Positions 50,262 to 58,495 of a DNA stretch of 64,000 nt are shown here, piece after piece. Under the pieces are notes generated by a model. The model saw only the letters and a list, made by a program, of their open reading frames with translations, ran no database searches and was not told the DNA's origin. Numbering within the stretch: the stretch's first letter is position 1; the number at the start of each line of letters is the position of its first letter. Source of the stretch: Parvularcula sp. IMCC14364 (lineage in GTDB: Bacteria; Pseudomonadota; Alphaproteobacteria; Caulobacterales; Parvularculaceae). The position numbers were made by a program, and so were the translations under genes. Where the stretch lies: contig NZ_CP132334.1 of the NCBI RefSeq assembly GCF_030758415.1, positions 1,674,001 to 1,738,000 of the forward strand. Direction: 5' to 3'.

Positions 50262-50735
50262 TCAGTCGTGGCTATGATCCTTGAAATAATGCGCCTTGTA
50301 AGACGCAACCAAGTCCCGCAATTTTTCAACATGCTGAAGGTCTGTTGTCTGCTTGCATTTCATGGCTGCCACGAGAATCTGATGCAGCAATGTCGTATGC
50401 TCTACGTAATCCGACCATTCTGCACCTGCCTGGGTCGCGGGCACCTTGACACGTTGCGTCAGAAAATAGGCGTGTGCAATATCCTGTATCTCCTGCGCAT
50501 GTTCTTCTTTATTGGCAGTCCACCGGGCAACCATGTGGTAGTCGGCAGGTGATGCCGCGCTGAGCCGGTCAATCTCCATCATGGATTTTTCAACCGTGCG
50601 AATATGTTCGTCCAGTTCATCGAACTGTCTTTTATCGTCATAGATACCGCATGGTATCTGGCAGTGCGCCAGAGCGGGTGACGTAAAAAACGGCACGGCC
50701 AATATGCCAAGCAGGGCCAAAAGTGTAATGCGCAT
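50262..50735 (-). CDS. sodN: Nickel superoxide dismutase with a Sec signal peptide
   Basis: The mature N-terminus would be HCQIPCGIYDD, the nickel hook in which His1, Cys2 and Cys6 bind nickel. It is followed by the four-helix protein of the Ni-SOD family (DELDEHIRTVEKSMMEIDRL, YHMVARWTANKEEHAQEIQ). The 157-residue precursor begins with a 23-residue Sec signal (LLALLGILAVPFFTSPALA), so signal peptidase cutting after ALA would expose His1 (residue 24). In most characterised cases a separate protease, SodX, removes a short leader; none is seen here. It probably acts outside the cytoplasm. The PepSY protein follows. Confidence 0.93.
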   Translation of the reverse strand: MRITLLALLGILAVPFFTSPALAHCQIPCGIYDDKRQFDELDEHIRTVEKSMMEIDRLSAASPADYHMVARWTANKEEHAQEIQDIAHAYFLTQRVKVPATQAGAEWSDYVEHTTLLHQILVAAMKCKQTTDLQHVEKLRDLVASYKAHYFKDHSHD

Positions 50736-52044: not shown

Positions 52045-54144
52045 ATGCGACCCGAAATTCTCAACCCACTATTCACCGATGTGACCTATCTGCCCGGCGT
52101 CGGGCCAAAGGTAGCTGCTCTTATTGGCAAGGTCGCGGGGCCCCGCATCATCGATTTACTGTTAACCCTGCCCACGGGCTTGATTGACAGGTCATCCCGC
52201 CCGCAGATTTTACAGGCCGAGGAAGGGCAACTCGTAACGCTCGAGATAACCGTCGAGAAACATACCCCCCCACCCAAAGGCATGTCGCGAATACCTTATA
52301 AAGTCATCTGCTCGGATCAGAGTGGCTTTATTACGCTGGCGTTTTTTCATGCGCGTTCTGATTATCTTCTGAAAAATCTGCCACAGGGTGCAACAAGGCT
52401 GGTCAGTGGCAAGGTCGAGAGGTTTTCTGGTGGACTGCAAATCGTGCATCCGGACCATATTGTTGATCCGGATAATGCCGATGCGCTACCATTGTATGAA
52501 CCGGTTTATCCCCTCACCGCCAGCCTGCACAGCAAAACCATGAGAAAAGCCGCTCAAGGCGCTGTGGAACGCTGCCCGGATCTGCCTGAATGGCTGGACC
52601 CGGCATTGGTGGCGCGAGAAAAATGGCCGACCTGGCCTGATGCCATGCGCAGCGCCCATCACCCCGAGAGCCGGCTTGACCTCACGGGCGAAAATGTTGC
52701 CCGGCAGCGCCTTGCCTATGATGAACTTCTCTCCAATCAGCTTGCTCTGGCATTGATACGGCAAAATCGTCACCGCAGCGCTGGCCGCAGCTTGGAGGGC
52801 AACAATGTCTTGCGCGAAGCTGTTCGTGCTGCGCTGCCTTTCCACTTGACCACAGATCAAGAGAAAGTCCTGACAGAAATCTTTGAGGACATGGCCGCTG
52901 CCACCAGAATGATCCGACTGGTACAGGGGGATGTCGGCTCGGGTAAAACTGTTGTCGCCTTGCTGGCCCTGCTTTGCGCCATAGAATCAGGTGCTCAGGG
53001 CGCTTTGATGGCCCCAACAGAGATACTGGCACGCCAACATTACGAATTCATCGCCCCCCTGCTGGCCGAAACAAATGTCAGTGTGGAACTGCTGACCGGT
53101 CGCGACAAGGGACAGGAGCGACAGGCCAAACTGTCCGGACTGGAGAAGGGCTACATTGATATTCTGATCGGCACACATGCCATCTTTTCGGAAGATGTGG
53201 CGTACAAGGATCTGGGGCTGATTATCGTTGACGAGCAGCATCGCTTCGGCGTCTTTCAGAGGCTTGCCCTTCAGGAAAAAGGGGTACATGCCGACGTCCT
53301 GGTCATGACGGCAACGCCGATCCCGCGCTCCCTGGCGCTGACAACATATGGCGATATGGATATCAGTCAGATCAGGGAGAAACCACCGGGCAGAAAGCCT
53401 GTAGATACGCGTGCCCTGCCTCTGGAACGCCTCGAGGATGTTACCATGGCAGTGCGCCGGGCAATAGAGCGCGGCGAACAGGTTTACTGGGTCTGCCCCA
53501 TGGTAGAAGAAAACGCCGACATAGAACTGACGGCTGTAGAAACCCGCTTTGCGCATTTGCAGCAATCACTCGGGGCAAGCGTCGGCCTTGTGCATGGCAA
53601 GATGAAATCAGCTGAAAAAGACGCCGTTGTGACTGCTTTTTACAACAAGGAAATCAGCCTGCTTGTCGCAACGACTGTTATCGAGGTCGGAGTAAACGCG
53701 CCAGACGCGACCATCATGGTTATCGAACATGCGGAACGCTTTGGCCTTGCACAGCTTCACCAGTTACGGGGGCGCGTCGGGCGTGGCGATCGTCAGTCTA
53801 CCTGCCTTCTTCTGTACAAGGCGAATGCCAAAGGTGAATTGGGTGAAACTGCCAAGGCACGGCTGAATGTTTTACGCGAAACGGATGATGGTTTTCTGAT
53901 CGCAGAGGAAGATCTGCGCTTGCGGGGCCCGGGCGACTTTCTTGGCTCTGCGCAATCAGGCTTTCCTGACTTTCGTATCGCTGATGCGACAAAGCACAAG
54001 GCATTGCTGGACATGGCAAGGGATGACAGCACCCTGATTATATCTCAGGACCCTGCGCTCGAAACGGGAAGAGGCACAGCCCTTAAAACCCTCTTGTATC
54101 TTTTCACTCGTGATGAAGCGGTAAAGCTACTGAAATCCGGCTAG
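52045..54144 (+). CDS. recG: ATP-dependent DNA helicase RecG
   Basis: RecG regresses stalled forks and processes branched DNA. The 699-residue protein has the N-terminal wedge with an OB fold (LPGVGPKVAALIGKV, LVTLEITVEK), Walker A GDVGSGKTVVALLAL, DEQH in IIVDEQHRFGVFQ, ATPIPRSLAL, VEVGVNAPDATIMVIE and QLRGRVGRG. It ends TAG at 54144, and a three-gene peptide cluster begins 88 bases further on. Confidence 0.96.
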   Translation: MRPEILNPLFTDVTYLPGVGPKVAALIGKVAGPRIIDLLLTLPTGLIDRSSRPQILQAEEGQLVTLEITVEKHTPPPKGMSRIPYKVICSDQSGFITLAFFHARSDYLLKNLPQGATRLVSGKVERFSGGLQIVHPDHIVDPDNADALPLYEPVYPLTASLHSKTMRKAAQGAVERCPDLPEWLDPALVAREKWPTWPDAMRSAHHPESRLDLTGENVARQRLAYDELLSNQLALALIRQNRHRSAGRSLEGNNVLREAVRAALPFHLTTDQEKVLTEIFEDMAAATRMIRLVQGDVGSGKTVVALLALLCAIESGAQGALMAPTEILARQHYEFIAPLLAETNVSVELLTGRDKGQERQAKLSGLEKGYIDILIGTHAIFSEDVAYKDLGLIIVDEQHRFGVFQRLALQEKGVHADVLVMTATPIPRSLALTTYGDMDISQIREKPPGRKPVDTRALPLERLEDVTMAVRRAIERGEQVYWVCPMVEENADIELTAVETRFAHLQQSLGASVGLVHGKMKSAEKDAVVTAFYNKEISLLVATTVIEVGVNAPDATIMVIEHAERFGLAQLHQLRGRVGRGDRQSTCLLLYKANAKGELGETAKARLNVLRETDDGFLIAEEDLRLRGPGDFLGSAQSGFPDFRIADATKHKALLDMARDDSTLIISQDPALETGRGTALKTLLYLFTRDEAVKLLKSG

Positions 54145-54195
54145 GGTGTAACAATTTCACTTTACAACCTATGGTTGATTATGCCTTACTGTGCA

Positions 54196-54212
54196 CGCGC
54201 AGATTGAGCGCG
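54196..54212 (+). repeat. Small hairpin in the leader of the peptide gene
   Basis: CGCGC and GCGCG flank a seven-base loop 20 bases before the peptide's ATG, just ahead of its ribosome site (AAAGGAG). It could help control translation of the peptide; the stem is only five pairs. Confidence 0.3.
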
Positions 54213-54232
54213 AATCTTCAAAGGAGTGAGAC

Positions 54233-54367
54233 ATGCAGAAAATCAACATCGAAGATATTCCTGTCCTGACATACGATGCCGGCATTCCAGACACGCGCTG
54301 GGGAGAAACATCCTCCAGTGCCGTTACTGGTGTAATCGTCAGTATCATTGTTCTCTTGTCAGACTAA
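54233..54367 (+). CDS. Putative precursor peptide (44 aa), likely RiPP-type
   Basis: The frame encodes MQKINIEDIPVLTYDAGIPD, then TRWGETSSS, then the hydrophobic AVTGVIVSIIVLLSD, ending TAA 54365-54367. AAAGGAG lies six bases before the ATG, the best ribosome site in the neighbourhood, so abundant translation is expected. The layout (polar, acidic N-terminal part resembling a leader; short core with Thr, Ser and Val/Ile-rich segment) and the coupled pair of putative enzymes downstream fit a ribosomally made, modified peptide. It could also be a small membrane peptide. No family was recognised; no protease or transporter is nearby. Confidence 0.6.
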   Translation: MQKINIEDIPVLTYDAGIPDTRWGETSSSAVTGVIVSIIVLLSD

Positions 54368-54375
54368 TTTATCGC

Positions 54376-54403
54376 GATGCGCGCCGCCACTCTGGCGCGC
54401 ATC
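54376..54403 (+). promoter_or_regulatory. Perfect hairpin between the peptide gene and the first enzyme gene
   Basis: GATGCGCGCC at 54376-54385 and GGCGCGCATC at 54394-54403 are exact inverted repeats around an eight-base loop. The stem starts nine bases after the peptide stop and no T-run follows. Such hairpins after RiPP precursor genes can act as partial terminators or stabilise the upstream message, giving more peptide than enzyme; this role is inference. Confidence 0.65.
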
Positions 54404-54424
54404 TATCCTGAACAGGAAAACCCA

Positions 54425-55408
54425 ATGACCATTTTCACTCGCCCTGAGGCAGGTTTCCGCAAGGCTGTCCTGAAGAACTCCAACGCATATCTAGAGATGC
54501 TGTTCTCCCTGCAACAGGAAACGCGGGATTTTTACCGGCAACATGCACCGCTTGCCCGAACCATCCAGGCAATAAACGAACTGCCTGCACCAACAGCAGG
54601 AGATATCGTTCGTCTGGCCGAAGAGTATATAGACTTCGATACAGTCAAGCCATTGATTGATTATGAAGCCAGCCGGTACACGGCCTTTCCCATGTACTAC
54701 TCCCCCATGACAGCCCTGAATACTGGCGCCGTAACGGGTTGGGTTCTCATCAACCATCCCAAAGTGCTGGTCATGCTGATCGCTTTTGACAGTACTGAAT
54801 TTCGCACCCAGAAACGCCTTGGCAGGATGAATGAGACAATCAACTTCTCCGCCGGTGATATTTCGCTGCGATTGTTGAAATCAGGCGGATTTACCTGTTC
54901 ACACTGGCAAGCCCCCCTGATCACGGATGATCTGGCAATGACTGGCGATCTACAGTGCGTTCATGAACGAACCAAGACATATAAAACCGGTGATCGAATT
55001 TTTACAAAAGGTGGCACAGAAACGATTGTTTATGAAGATGTAGCCGGGCCGACCATTGGGCTACAGGTTTATTCCCGCATCTTTCGCACCAATGTCATGG
55101 CGGATTACGACCCGGTATCGCATCTGGTGAAAACCCTCTCCGCTGCGGACCAACGCTCCAGCCGGGTGCAGATGCTGAACACTGTTGCGAGATTGTTTGA
55201 CCGACAGGATGCCGTGCCCCCCATGCAATCGCTCATGAAGCACCCGGACCACTATGTTCGCTGGCAAACAGCGCGGGAACTTGTCGCGCTGGACCCTGAA
55301 GCTGCTGAACACCCCTTGAGGCAGATGAGCGAACAGGATGCCAACCCCGATGTTCGCCGCATGGCGGCCCGTACACTCCAGATGTTTTACACAGAAAGTA
55401 CGCACTGA
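54425..55408 (+). CDS. Cupin-like/HEAT-like protein A of the peptide cluster
   Basis: A 327-residue protein not matched to a known family. Residues 1-85 are helical; 85-225 contain a beta-rich, cupin-like part (AVTGWVLINHPKVLVMLIAF, then CSHWQAPLI, QCVHERTKTYKTGDRIFTKGG, PTIGLQVYSR) with His160 and His180 as metal candidates; 240-325 are HEAT-like (HYVRWQTARELVALDP, NPDVRRMAARTLQMF). AGGA seven bases before ATG 54425 was used instead of the ATG at 54377, which is inside the hairpin. Its stop overlaps gene B (TGATG). The shared design suggests paralogy with B; an oxygenase or modification role is inference. Confidence 0.72.
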   Translation: MTIFTRPEAGFRKAVLKNSNAYLEMLFSLQQETRDFYRQHAPLARTIQAINELPAPTAGDIVRLAEEYIDFDTVKPLIDYEASRYTAFPMYYSPMTALNTGAVTGWVLINHPKVLVMLIAFDSTEFRTQKRLGRMNETINFSAGDISLRLLKSGGFTCSHWQAPLITDDLAMTGDLQCVHERTKTYKTGDRIFTKGGTETIVYEDVAGPTIGLQVYSRIFRTNVMADYDPVSHLVKTLSAADQRSSRVQMLNTVARLFDRQDAVPPMQSLMKHPDHYVRWQTARELVALDPEAAEHPLRQMSEQDANPDVRRMAARTLQMFYTESTH

Positions 55409-56343
55409 TGCTTGTTCATATTGACACAAATGAAAAGGATGACTTCACGCTGGATGAACTTGTGCATTGGCTTAAGGAAAACCGAATAGACACGTCTTCT
55501 CACCAAGATATGCTCAAAGCTGCCCCTGCACTGAAAAGGCTTGCCAATAACAGGTCATTTCTAGCAGATCTGGCTGTATCCGAAATAAAGGATGTCTGCA
55601 CATCTGATCCGCATATTTATCATTACTCTGCACAGGTTATGCTCTTACACTTGCCTGACAACCAGCAGGACAACTTCTATATCAGGGCGAACTTCTGGCC
55701 TTCTGTAAAAGACCAGCCGCTTGTCGCAGCAGGTCCTGGACCGTTCTTCTACAACCGTCCCCATGACCACAACTTCAACTTTCTGACTGTCGGGTATTAT
55801 GGGCCGGGTTACTGGAGCAACTACTATGAATATGACCATGAGCGTGTGACAGGTTATCCCGGTGAGCACGTACCTGATCTGGTGTTCACGGAAAAACGGG
55901 CACTGACCGAAGGTCATGTCATGCTTTACCGCGCGTCACAGGATGTGCATGAACAGCTTCCCGCTGACAGTATGTCGATAAGTCTGAATATCCTTGAAAA
56001 TACACCGCGCGTAAGATTGACTGATCAGTACTCGTTTGATCTGGAGCGTAATGCCATCAGACAAATCATCAACATTTCTCTGGCCCCTGCCGTTTTCAAT
56101 ATGGCCCTGCATCTTGGTGGTGAGGATGGACGTGATGCGCTGTCGGAAATAATCAGATTGTCACCTGATCCATTTATCCGTTTCAATGCCTATAAAGCGT
56201 TGGCAAGTGAATGCCGTGAGCCAGCAAAATACTGTGAAGCTCTGGCATCAGCTTTATCAGACAAGTCGTCCATGGTGACCCGGTGGGCCGATCGTCATAT
56301 CGCAGACGTTCAACGCGGCATGAACGAAGGCAGCACTGGCTGA
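55408..56343 (+). CDS. Cupin-like/HEAT-like protein B of the peptide cluster
   Basis: A 311-residue protein with the same order of parts as A. The helical N-terminus is followed by a cupin-like core with the metal motif RPHDHNFNFLTVGYYGPGYW (His119 and His121) and a later His181 in YRASQDVHEQLP, as in iron- or 2-oxoglutarate-using cupins. Residues 205-305 hold HEAT-like helices (FIRFNAYKALASECREPA, MVTRWADRHIADVQ). The start ATG shares a base with A's stop, so the two are translated together. B has the better metal site; A may be a partner or a second enzyme. No family name is known to me. Confidence 0.75.
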   Translation: MLVHIDTNEKDDFTLDELVHWLKENRIDTSSHQDMLKAAPALKRLANNRSFLADLAVSEIKDVCTSDPHIYHYSAQVMLLHLPDNQQDNFYIRANFWPSVKDQPLVAAGPGPFFYNRPHDHNFNFLTVGYYGPGYWSNYYEYDHERVTGYPGEHVPDLVFTEKRALTEGHVMLYRASQDVHEQLPADSMSISLNILENTPRVRLTDQYSFDLERNAIRQIINISLAPAVFNMALHLGGEDGRDALSEIIRLSPDPFIRFNAYKALASECREPAKYCEALASALSDKSSMVTRWADRHIADVQRGMNEGSTG

Positions 56344-56358
56344 TCAGTCTGTATCTGC

Positions 56359-57150
56359 TTAGTCTTTTGTACGGGAAAAGAGCGAGAACTTTTTATTAGG
56401 TTCATCGTTCGATTGTTCCGACAACTGCACGGCGGCAGCCTCAAGCTCTTTGACGCGCTCATCCGGATCAAATGCTGGTGTCACAAGACCCGCAGAGAAG
56501 ATGAGTTTCGCGCCCTCCTCCACAGTCATATCGAGTATGCGCAAATTGCCGGATGGCACAAAGAGCAGAAACCCGGAGGTTGGGTTTGGTGTTGTAGGCA
56601 CAAAAACGCTGACCAGGTTATCGTCCACATCCTGCAGTTTGTGACGGATCTCTCCTTTGGTGGAAGTCACAACGAAAGCCATGACCCACAGGCCCTCTTT
56701 CGGATACTCCACAAGCGCAACTTCCTTGAAAGAGCGTTCCGATTGCTGCAGGGCCATTTCAAAGACATTCTTGAAGAAGCCGTAGAGATTTCGCACCACC
56801 GGCATGGAATCAACGAGGCGCTCTCCGGTTTTGATAACCGTCCGGCCAATAAAATTCTTGGCCAGCGCCCCCAAAACAATAAGCGCAACAATAGCGAGTA
56901 CGATTCCGGCCCCTGGCAGATAGTCGAGCACATTTGGCGGAATGAACCTTGCCGGGATGACACGTTTGACCTGTCCATCCAGGTCGGCCAATGGACCCGT
57001 CACAAAAATATAGATCAGCCAGAAAGTGATACCAAGAGGGGCCGCGACGACGATCCCGGTCAGCAGGTCGTTTCTGAGACGTGTCAAGAAACTGGGCTGT
57101 TGCGGCTTTATCAATTTCGAACCGGATTCTTTGTCAGGTGACTTTGCCAA
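56359..57150 (-). CDS. DUF502 family membrane protein
   Basis: A 263-residue protein with two transmembrane segments (LLTGIVVAAPLGITFWLIYIF and GAGIVLAIVALIVLGALA) and a conserved soluble part (DSMPVVRNLYGFFKNVFEM, VVTSTKGEIRH, SVFVPTTPNPTSGFLLFVP, DMTVEEGAKLIFSAG). The family is widespread, has a plant relative implicated in membrane traffic, and no firm bacterial role. It is convergent with the peptide cluster. In related genomes it tends to lie next to recG, so the cluster appears to sit in a conserved pair. Confidence 0.92.
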   Translation of the reverse strand: MAKSPDKESGSKLIKPQQPSFLTRLRNDLLTGIVVAAPLGITFWLIYIFVTGPLADLDGQVKRVIPARFIPPNVLDYLPGAGIVLAIVALIVLGALAKNFIGRTVIKTGERLVDSMPVVRNLYGFFKNVFEMALQQSERSFKEVALVEYPKEGLWVMAFVVTSTKGEIRHKLQDVDDNLVSVFVPTTPNPTSGFLLFVPSGNLRILDMTVEEGAKLIFSAGLVTPAFDPDERVKELEAAAVQLSEQSNDEPNKKFSLFSRTKD

Positions 57151-57322: not shown

Positions 57323-58495
57323 ATGCCCTTGAGACTTCTAATTGGTAGCGCTGTATTCTGTGTCAGCCTTGTTCTGGCGCTGGCGGTGTGGGTCTTCCAG
57401 GATAATATCGCCAAGTTCGTCATGAACCCGCGTGTACCCTATGAGATATACACGCCACCTGAAGCACCGGATTATACGCAGCAGGAAAACTGGCTGACAT
57501 GGCCTGATCCCGACAGCGAAAAGCTCGTTGATGTTTTTTACGTTCCCGGTACGGCTTATGCCTCTTCGGATCACTGGAATGCGCCGCTCGACAATCGCGA
57601 GACACGCTCAACCCTGCAGCAAGTTTTACTGCCCAATGAAGCAGGGCCATTTGCACAAACCAGCAATATTTATGCACCATATTATCGTCAGGCCACGCTG
57701 TTTTCTTTTTTCACCCAGAAACATCAGGGACGAGCCGCAAGAAAAACAGCATATGCCGATATCAAGAAAGCTTTTGAATATTTCCTGGCTCAGTCTGATC
57801 CGGCCCGGCCCCTGATTCTTGCAGGCTACGATCAGGGTGGCCTGCATGTTCAGGGGTTGCTGATAGACTTTTTCCAGAATGACGAAGATCTTCATCGTCG
57901 GCTGGTCGCCGCCTATATTATAGACCAGAGTACGCCGCTTGACCTGTTCAACTATACGCTGACGGAAACACTGCCCTGCAAATATCCAACGGATGTGCGC
58001 TGTGTTGTCTCGTGGAATGCACTGGAAGCGAGACATAAGGATGAAATCTGGCGCAAGAGCAATCGCCTGCTGGTATGGAACAGCAACGGCACACTGGAAT
58101 CCGTTGAAAAGCGCCCTCTTTTATGCACCAACCCCCTCGACTGGCGGCTGACAGCCGACGTCGTCGAAAAAGACAAACACCGCGGCGCGGCATCTGCAGG
58201 GGGCATCGGTTTTGGTGAGCAACCGGCAATAATAGAAAACGCTGTCAGCGTGCAGTGCCTAGAAGGCGTCGCTATCGTAACACAGCCCCGGCAATCCTGG
58301 CTGCAGCGCCCGCACGGCTTCGGCAAGCAGTGGCAGTCCCTGGACTATAACCTGTTTTTTGAAGACATTCGCGTGAACGCAGAAGAACGCGTTATCGCGC
58401 TGGCGAGCCTACTGGAACAGGAAAACAGGATAGCGCCGCCAATTATCGATACCGTCGAAATCGGCGAAGCCCCCATCAAAAAAATACCAAACTAG
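57323..58495 (+). CDS. DUF3089 alpha/beta-hydrolase-like protein with altered nucleophile
   Basis: A 390-residue protein with an N-terminal membrane helix (LLIGSAVFCVSLVLALAVWVF). It shares DUF3089 features: VDVFYVPGTAYASSDHWNAPL, SNIYAPYYRQATLFSFF and DIKKAFEYFLAQSDPARPLILAG. At the nucleophile elbow the family has GHSQG, whereas this protein has GYDQGG (Asp170), so a Ser-dependent hydrolase mechanism is unlikely unless Asp serves instead. The rest of the fold looks intact and free of frameshifts. Its 3' end overlaps convergent kdsA by four bases. Confidence 0.85.
   Translation: MPLRLLIGSAVFCVSLVLALAVWVFQDNIAKFVMNPRVPYEIYTPPEAPDYTQQENWLTWPDPDSEKLVDVFYVPGTAYASSDHWNAPLDNRETRSTLQQVLLPNEAGPFAQTSNIYAPYYRQATLFSFFTQKHQGRAARKTAYADIKKAFEYFLAQSDPARPLILAGYDQGGLHVQGLLIDFFQNDEDLHRRLVAAYIIDQSTPLDLFNYTLTETLPCKYPTDVRCVVSWNALEARHKDEIWRKSNRLLVWNSNGTLESVEKRPLLCTNPLDWRLTADVVEKDKHRGAASAGGIGFGEQPAIIENAVSVQCLEGVAIVTQPRQSWLQRPHGFGKQWQSLDYNLFFEDIRVNAEERVIALASLLEQENRIAPPIIDTVEIGEAPIKKIPN

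Follow-up and report, generated by a model that had tools for sequence, protein, structure and literature searches.

The window analysed here, a stretch of 64,000 nucleotides from Parvularcula sp. IMCC14364, carries a compact cassette between recG, which ends at position 54144, and a DUF502 gene on the minus strand (56359-57150; both genes named by Pfam). The cassette encodes a small precursor-like peptide (P) and two larger proteins, A and B, and has the following features:

54145..56358, forward strand: whole cassette, flanked by recG and the DUF502 gene; two same-genus genomes lack it at the corresponding site
54220..54226, forward strand: ribosome-binding site AAAGGAG of the peptide gene, read directly
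54233..54367, forward strand: precursor-like peptide P, 44 aa, supported by homologues and pN/pS
54376..54403, forward strand: 11-bp stem-loop lying between the peptide stop and the start of A, supported by fold energy and by stems and covariation in relatives
54425..55408 (open frame from 54377), forward strand: A, HEAT-tailed partner, 327 aa, supported by HEAT_2 and a profile match to B
55408..56343, forward strand: B, putative CDO-like cupin, 311 aa, supported by His conservation and hhalign to the cysteine dioxygenase (CDO) profile

A sequence-only reading of this DNA had pointed to a small ORF with a strong ribosome site and to a stop/start overlap of the two larger genes, and both are present: AAAGGAG precedes the peptide start by a spacer of six bases, and TGATG joins A and B at 55406-55410. 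The start of A is most likely at 54425 (MTIFTRP..., 327 aa) rather than at 54377, since the ATG at 54377 sits within the stem-loop and 327 aa is also the length of A at locus L007 (same contig as L003), where A is 75% and B 79% identical. A simple scan found no promoter-like site before the peptide gene and a terminator-like site inside its 3' end (54325-54344); terminator-like sites in the stretch numbered 4, against 1.8 expected. No known RNA family was found in the 64-kb window. A nickel-containing superoxide dismutase is encoded at 50262-50735 on the minus strand (Pfam Sod_Ni, E 2.7e-27).

Distribution and inheritance of the cassette

A search with one sequence found relatives of B in 5 of 150 genomes of the order, and a nine-row profile found them in 5 of 385 genomes at class level and in 15 of 398 at phylum level; these counts include the window's own genome and partly overlap in the genomes sampled. 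With a 26-row profile, relatives were detected in 4 of 6 genomes of the window's genus, in 87 of 249 genomes (44 of 96 genera) of the alphaproteobacterial family f17, probably the Sphingomonadaceae to judge from the named loci L009-L011, and in 2 of 274 genomes of another class of the phylum, probably the Gammaproteobacteria. Plasmid records from Alteromonas (43% over 96% of B) and Vibrio (24% over 55%) also match. The 100 loci compared are not independent, close relatives being among them; L003-L006 and L008 are duplicate or truncated entries, L049 stands outside the set, and the rows of the 87/249 count that were left out (G957, G1015, two from G1042, two from G1038, and G1053) are contig edges or fragments. 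A precedes B in 99 of the 100 loci, the exception (L152) lying at a contig end.

The peptide, A and B are missing as a block in two genomes of the same genus (L187 and L188), where the matches to recG and DUF502 lie roughly 0.1-0.3 kb apart, against 2.2 kb in the window. Since recG and the DUF502 gene are adjacent in these cassette-less genomes, the three genes are gained and lost together. In a FastTree phylogeny of 99 B sequences, the copy on the Alteromonas stellipolaris plasmid is placed beside the window clade with a local support of 0.97, which suggests transfer of the cassette between classes. Viral contigs, phages and PHROGs held no relative of the cassette, and on that ground we rejected a viral or phage origin; a defence system was set aside for want of a PADLOC match.

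We also considered as a partner the DUF3089 alpha/beta hydrolase gene at 57323-58495. It was rejected because it also stands beside recG-DUF502 in the cassette-less same-genus genomes, and its position therefore reflects host synteny in this lineage; a DUF3089 gene lies within 5 kb of the unit in 38 of 100 loci, the flank available at many of them being limited to about 3 kb. The eight window neighbours scanned gave no match to a protease, exporter or RRE-like domain, and no export gene was noticed by eye at the other alphaproteobacterial loci. Because no export gene was found near the alphaproteobacterial units, their product may remain intracellular or leave by general routes. The Alteromonas plasmid locus holds Yip1, HlyD, ABC and MacB-type genes, two candidate peptides, A and B, together with an ABC ATPase and an ABC-2 permease.

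Several individual loci have neighbours of their own. The cassette lies between yidC and an engB-like GTPase gene at L040 (Pfam), beside yidC at L047, where a C-terminal yidC fragment was read, and beside yidC by eye at L144. A small ORF with a double-glycine-like leader (MRELTSAEIAMVSGGNGD) occurs at L031:10846-11118, about 2.7 kb 3' of B. At L146, which comes from a genome of another class and has no recognisable precursor, a JmjC/Cupin_8 protein (L146:1173-2120; Pfam Cupin_8, E 4.4e-41) is encoded directly 5' of A/B. The Vibrio sp. ED002 plasmid carries a short A/B-like pair (L049:7192-8748) in which B stops before the HEAT tail, with a different 59-aa ORF 3' of the pair and restriction-modification genes nearby.

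The precursor-like peptide and the stem-loop after its gene

The window peptide (MQKINIEDIPVLTYDAGIPDTRWGETSSSAVTGVIVSIIVLLSD) has a conserved, acidic N-terminal part and a C-terminal part rich in Val and Ile, and matches no family in Pfam or NCBIfam. The earlier proposal of a peptide-modifying system depended on a small ORF recurring beside homologues of A and B and on its conservation, and both are borne out: a precursor-like ORF lies 5' of A in 96 of 99 loci, and selection on the peptide is purifying. A profile made from 13 peptides matched upstream of A in 84 of the 99 loci at E<=0.01 and in 71 of the 86 loci outside the profile; on controls, it matched none of 495 randomised and none of 198 downstream regions at E<=0.1, the best control reaching 5.7 bits. 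Among the 15 loci without a profile match, a small ORF was found by eye in 12, leaving L044, L146 and L149 with no recognisable precursor peptide. An alignment of the 64 strongest peptides reads LPKIDLSSLPDLDTxTGLFGS, a variable spacer and then DDRIVIIMVYLYE, with one Pro kept in 64/64 and one Gly in 62/64. The core is also conserved within the main group.

The peptide evolves as a protein, with purifying selection on both halves. In 30 non-overlapping pairs picked by B identity (60-98%), pS was 0.53 and pN 0.18 in the N-terminal part (pN/pS 0.35), and 0.51 and 0.22, respectively, in the last 24 residues (pN/pS 0.42). Eighteen pairs preselected by peptide identity gave lower ratios (0.24 N-terminal, 0.32 C-terminal), since such preselection reduces pN.

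Composition was counted in 95 peptides, the L133 peptide being left out. Cys is present in 13 of them, never in the first 20 positions, and is absent from the window peptide. In the last 24 positions, no residue among the 17 counted (all but Ala, Leu and Gln) is as frequent as Val (13.9%) and Ile (11.7%); Cys aside, Tyr is the most enriched counted residue relative to the first 20 positions (5.2% vs 0.5%). At least one Cys, Tyr, Met, Trp or His occurs within the last 24 residues in 89 of the 95 peptides and none in the other 6; the window peptide has one Trp there and no Cys, Tyr, Met or His. The longest hydrophobic run has a median of 9 residues.

The stem-loop after the window's peptide gene folds at -24.3 kcal/mol (z -4.6; 0/200 shuffles) and is followed by no T-run. 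Perfect stems of at least 9 bp within 110 bases after the peptide were found in 22 of 84 loci; the rate was 2.5% in randomised sequences and 0.3% in 924 further-downstream windows, which lie mostly in A/B. Covariation was counted in 33 of the 84 loci, picked by the L-R-x-D...Q protein motif of A and not by pairing, in which the equivalent hairpin lies in the first codons of A. There, 88.4% of cells pair, and sliding lowers pairing to 23-55%; 31 cells are changed on both sides (shuffled mean 9.7, 0/500 reaching 31), a count that leans toward the structure because the structure was itself derived from these sequences and the stretch is under protein constraint as well. The stem-loop is not universal, since the mean folding z over the 84 loci is just -0.67, with 16 below -2 and 10 above 1.

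Protein B, its partner A and the cysteine dioxygenase superfamily

The HxH...H triad of the cysteine dioxygenase superfamily (Pfam CDO_I, PF05995) is present as a predicted metal site in all 99 B sequences compared, which leave out L112 (matched stretch of 200 residues or less). H119, H121 and H181 are invariant in 99/99, as are W97, F123, T127, G132, G134, Y135, L166, Q183, N194 and Q207. In hhalign comparisons, whole B matched CDO at 90% with nine CDO-like rows (eight plasmid sequences and L154) and at 85% with a tenth (L153). The alignment runs over 173 collinear columns through the helical N-terminal and cupin parts, with HDH on HDH and DVH on DIH. Without the HEAT tail, B still gave 56% (score 36.1), the core alone 20% (nine rows) or 8% (ten rows), and the tail alone 0.1%; 22 decoys, taken as clusters of long ORFs from around the loci and with unchecked antisense frames among them, reached at most a score of 21.0 and 1.5%. 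A JmjC/Cupin_8 relationship for B was rejected (hhalign 0.1%).

Family libraries were largely silent. Each of 26 B relatives was scanned against Pfam and NCBIfam, and no cupin family appeared at E<=1, with CDO_I itself unmatched at this threshold; the sole oxygenase name in the family scans was tryptophan 2,3-dioxygenase in one B member (E 0.042). NCBIfam gave nothing above cut-off for the window's A and B, and no curated family in Pfam or NCBIfam covers the B core. AlphaFold models of B from 6 sequences were poor (pLDDT 51.7 for the whole, 35.7 for the core), and when PDB sequences were searched with the two profiles, most hits were designed HEAT (alphaRep) proteins and the others weak. The profile comparisons suggest that B is related to CDO, from which it differs in the low core match, the lack of a Pfam-level match, an extra HEAT-like tail, and a partner and precursor as neighbours, the peptides being mostly without Cys. 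B would adopt a cupin fold, bind a metal and act on the peptide; a catalytic role is favoured because the active-site-like residues are invariant.

A presents a different picture. HEAT_2 matches it above the Pfam cut-off (41.8 bits vs 27.7; E 1.4e-10), no His column is filled in more than 52% of 92 rows, so that it offers no conserved His site, and it gave no CDO signal (1.2-1.3%; 1.3% without the tail). No cupin family matched any of 25 A relatives in Pfam at E<=1. The sequence-only reading had given both proteins a cupin-like middle and HEAT-like C-terminal helices. The cupin-like middle stands in part for B, through a moderate CDO profile match with no Pfam or NCBIfam match above cut-off, and fails for A, which lacks a conserved His site and, without its tail, matches B weakly and CDO not at all, so that a pair of cupin enzymes was at most half right. 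The HEAT-like helices hold for A and fall below the Pfam cut-off for B (20.7 bits).

Whole-profile comparison of A with B gave 97.6% over 251 columns, but when the match was split, the HEAT tails matched at 94.9% and the remainder at 12.6% (score 25.8 over 160 columns; best decoys 20.3 for B and 15.8 for A), and the B core alone matched A at 2.6%. Since the tails carry most of the match, we dropped homology from end to end. In these profiles, the HEAT tail is clearly common to A and B, and kinship outside it is just suggested because the remainder and core values are low; A is a possible degenerate paralogue of B. B keeps an invariant triad that A lacks, the pattern expected of a catalytic subunit with a scaffold.

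Candidate roles of the cassette

With moderate confidence, we propose that the cassette is a RiPP-type unit whose precursor peptide is modified by B, a CDO-like cupin, and its partner A, and whose stem-loop sets the ratio of peptide to enzymes. The genomic side of the earlier RiPP proposal is well supported, both by the recurrence of a precursor-like ORF (96 of 99 loci) and by the purifying selection acting on it; modification of the peptide, and its chemistry, we infer. A short encoded precursor beside dedicated putative modifying proteins, one trait of a RiPP cluster, is present, and the loci further resemble such clusters in the conserved N-terminal and hydrophobic C-terminal parts of the precursor, in the co-inheritance of the putative enzymes, in the stem-loop after the precursor gene and, at one locus, in the presence of export genes. 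Known RiPP enzyme classes and RRE-like domains, in contrast, gave no match to A or B.

In such a unit, the conserved N-terminal half of the peptide, with LPKIDLSSLPDLDTxTGLFGS as its consensus in the main group, would serve as a recognition leader that A or the HEAT tails may bind, and the C-terminal Val/Ile-rich stretch, preceded by acidic residues, would be the core. A, which has its HEAT tail in common with B and is probably a degenerate relative of it, would bind and present the peptide; B would use Fe(II) and O2 at its three-His site (H119, H121, H181), Fe(II)/O2 chemistry without 2-oxoglutarate being expected of a CDO-like enzyme. The stem-loop may set a high peptide-to-enzyme ratio. The residue modified, removal of the leader, export and the biological role can be sketched only in this conditional form.

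CDO-type enzymes are known for thiol chemistry. The 13/95 count, which bears only on the case in which the peptide is the substrate, excludes Cys as the common target, and the common reaction is probably not thiol dioxygenation, the window peptide itself being Cys-free. Oxidation at aliphatic (Val/Ile) positions or at an acidic residue is a guess, and a weak one as regards the aliphatic target because 89 of 95 peptides hold Cys, Tyr, Met, Trp or His within their last 24 residues, Tyr showing the strongest enrichment of the residues counted apart from Cys; an aromatic residue or Met may also be the target. More tentatively, and in our estimate with less than an even chance, the unit may represent a new RiPP class, in which a non-heme iron cupin of CDO type joins a degenerate partner, each with a HEAT tail, in a heteromer that oxidises unactivated Val/Ile or a flanking acidic residue of a beta-strand-like hydrophobic peptide. 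Such a class would be common within a single alphaproteobacterial family, occur on at least one plasmid and have a core domain without an annotated family.

Several results count against a RiPP-type unit: (i) CDO_I is unmatched, the core scores are weak and the AlphaFold models are poor; (ii) three of 99 loci have no recognisable peptide, and the scanned window neighbours include no protease, exporter or RRE; (iii) a terminator-like site lies in the peptide end and no promoter-like site precedes it; and (iv) the core is conserved within the main group, which would be unusual for a fast-diversifying bacteriocin. This conservation also fits the strongest alternative, that the peptide is a functional small protein bound or regulated by A/B rather than a chemically changed substrate; an A/B complex that senses O2 or a metal might, for instance, control how stable a hydrophobic microprotein is or its insertion into the membrane. 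The lack of a protease or exporter among the scanned neighbours, with none noticed at other alphaproteobacterial loci, and the yidC genes at L040, L047 and L144 point the same way. We nevertheless regard this as rather unlikely, since the invariance of B's active-site-like residues argues for catalysis and the Alteromonas plasmid unit stands among export genes.

Three further explanations seem improbable to a similar degree. The small ORF could be the regulatory leader peptide of an attenuator, with A/B acting on something else; ilv/leu leader peptides likewise consist of a short Val/Ile-rich ORF followed by a hairpin, and the short ORF, its Val/Ile run, the stem-loop before A and the terminator-like site in the peptide end all recall them. 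Conservation is, however, at least equal outside the Val/Ile run (the invariant Pro and near-invariant Gly; pN/pS 0.35 vs 0.42), the window hairpin lacks a T-run, the hairpin of the 33 relatives lies inside the coding sequence of A, and the Alteromonas plasmid has two different candidate peptides before A, all of which make an attenuator very unlikely. There is similarly little to commend a toxin-antitoxin-like pair in which A/B neutralises a hydrophobic toxic peptide: the hydrophobic character of the peptide and the patchy distribution (87 of 249 genomes) would suit it, but no PADLOC match was obtained, the hydrophobic run is shorter than a usual membrane helix, and an antitoxin would not need invariant metal-site-like residues. 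It is equally hard to credit that B works on small-molecule thiols in the manner of ordinary CDO, as its profile similarity might imply, with the peptide a neighbour of unrelated function, given that the three genes are missing as a block and reappear together in distant lineages.

Returning to the RiPP-type unit, two described groups of enzymes come close. The ADO/PCO N-terminal cysteine oxidases are described as O2-using thiol dioxygenases that act on polypeptides (PMC8503633, PMC12098869); those enzymes act on an N-terminal Cys, whereas few of the present peptides, and not that of the window, contain Cys at all. Cupin-4 enzymes have been reported in proteusin-type clusters, which likewise place a cupin beside a RiPP precursor (PMC9426513); they differ in that the A and B members lack a Pfam cupin match and the window peptide a Pfam or NCBIfam family. 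Neither this unit nor a CDO-like RiPP maturase was described in the literature searched, the coverage of which left subscription papers and bioRxiv mostly outside.

If the proposal of a RiPP-type unit is true, it would add a peptide-modifying oxygenase class that has no name in present family libraries and is present in about a third of the sampled f17-family genomes, and a CDO-type enzyme acting on mostly Cys-free peptides would widen the scope of the 3-His iron site. A subgroup of precursors (L108, L112, L118, L120, L124, L127, L128, L130 and L143) has E-V-(G/A)-G-x-x-C as a core motif and, in contrast to the Cys-free window peptide, possibly undergoes different chemistry.
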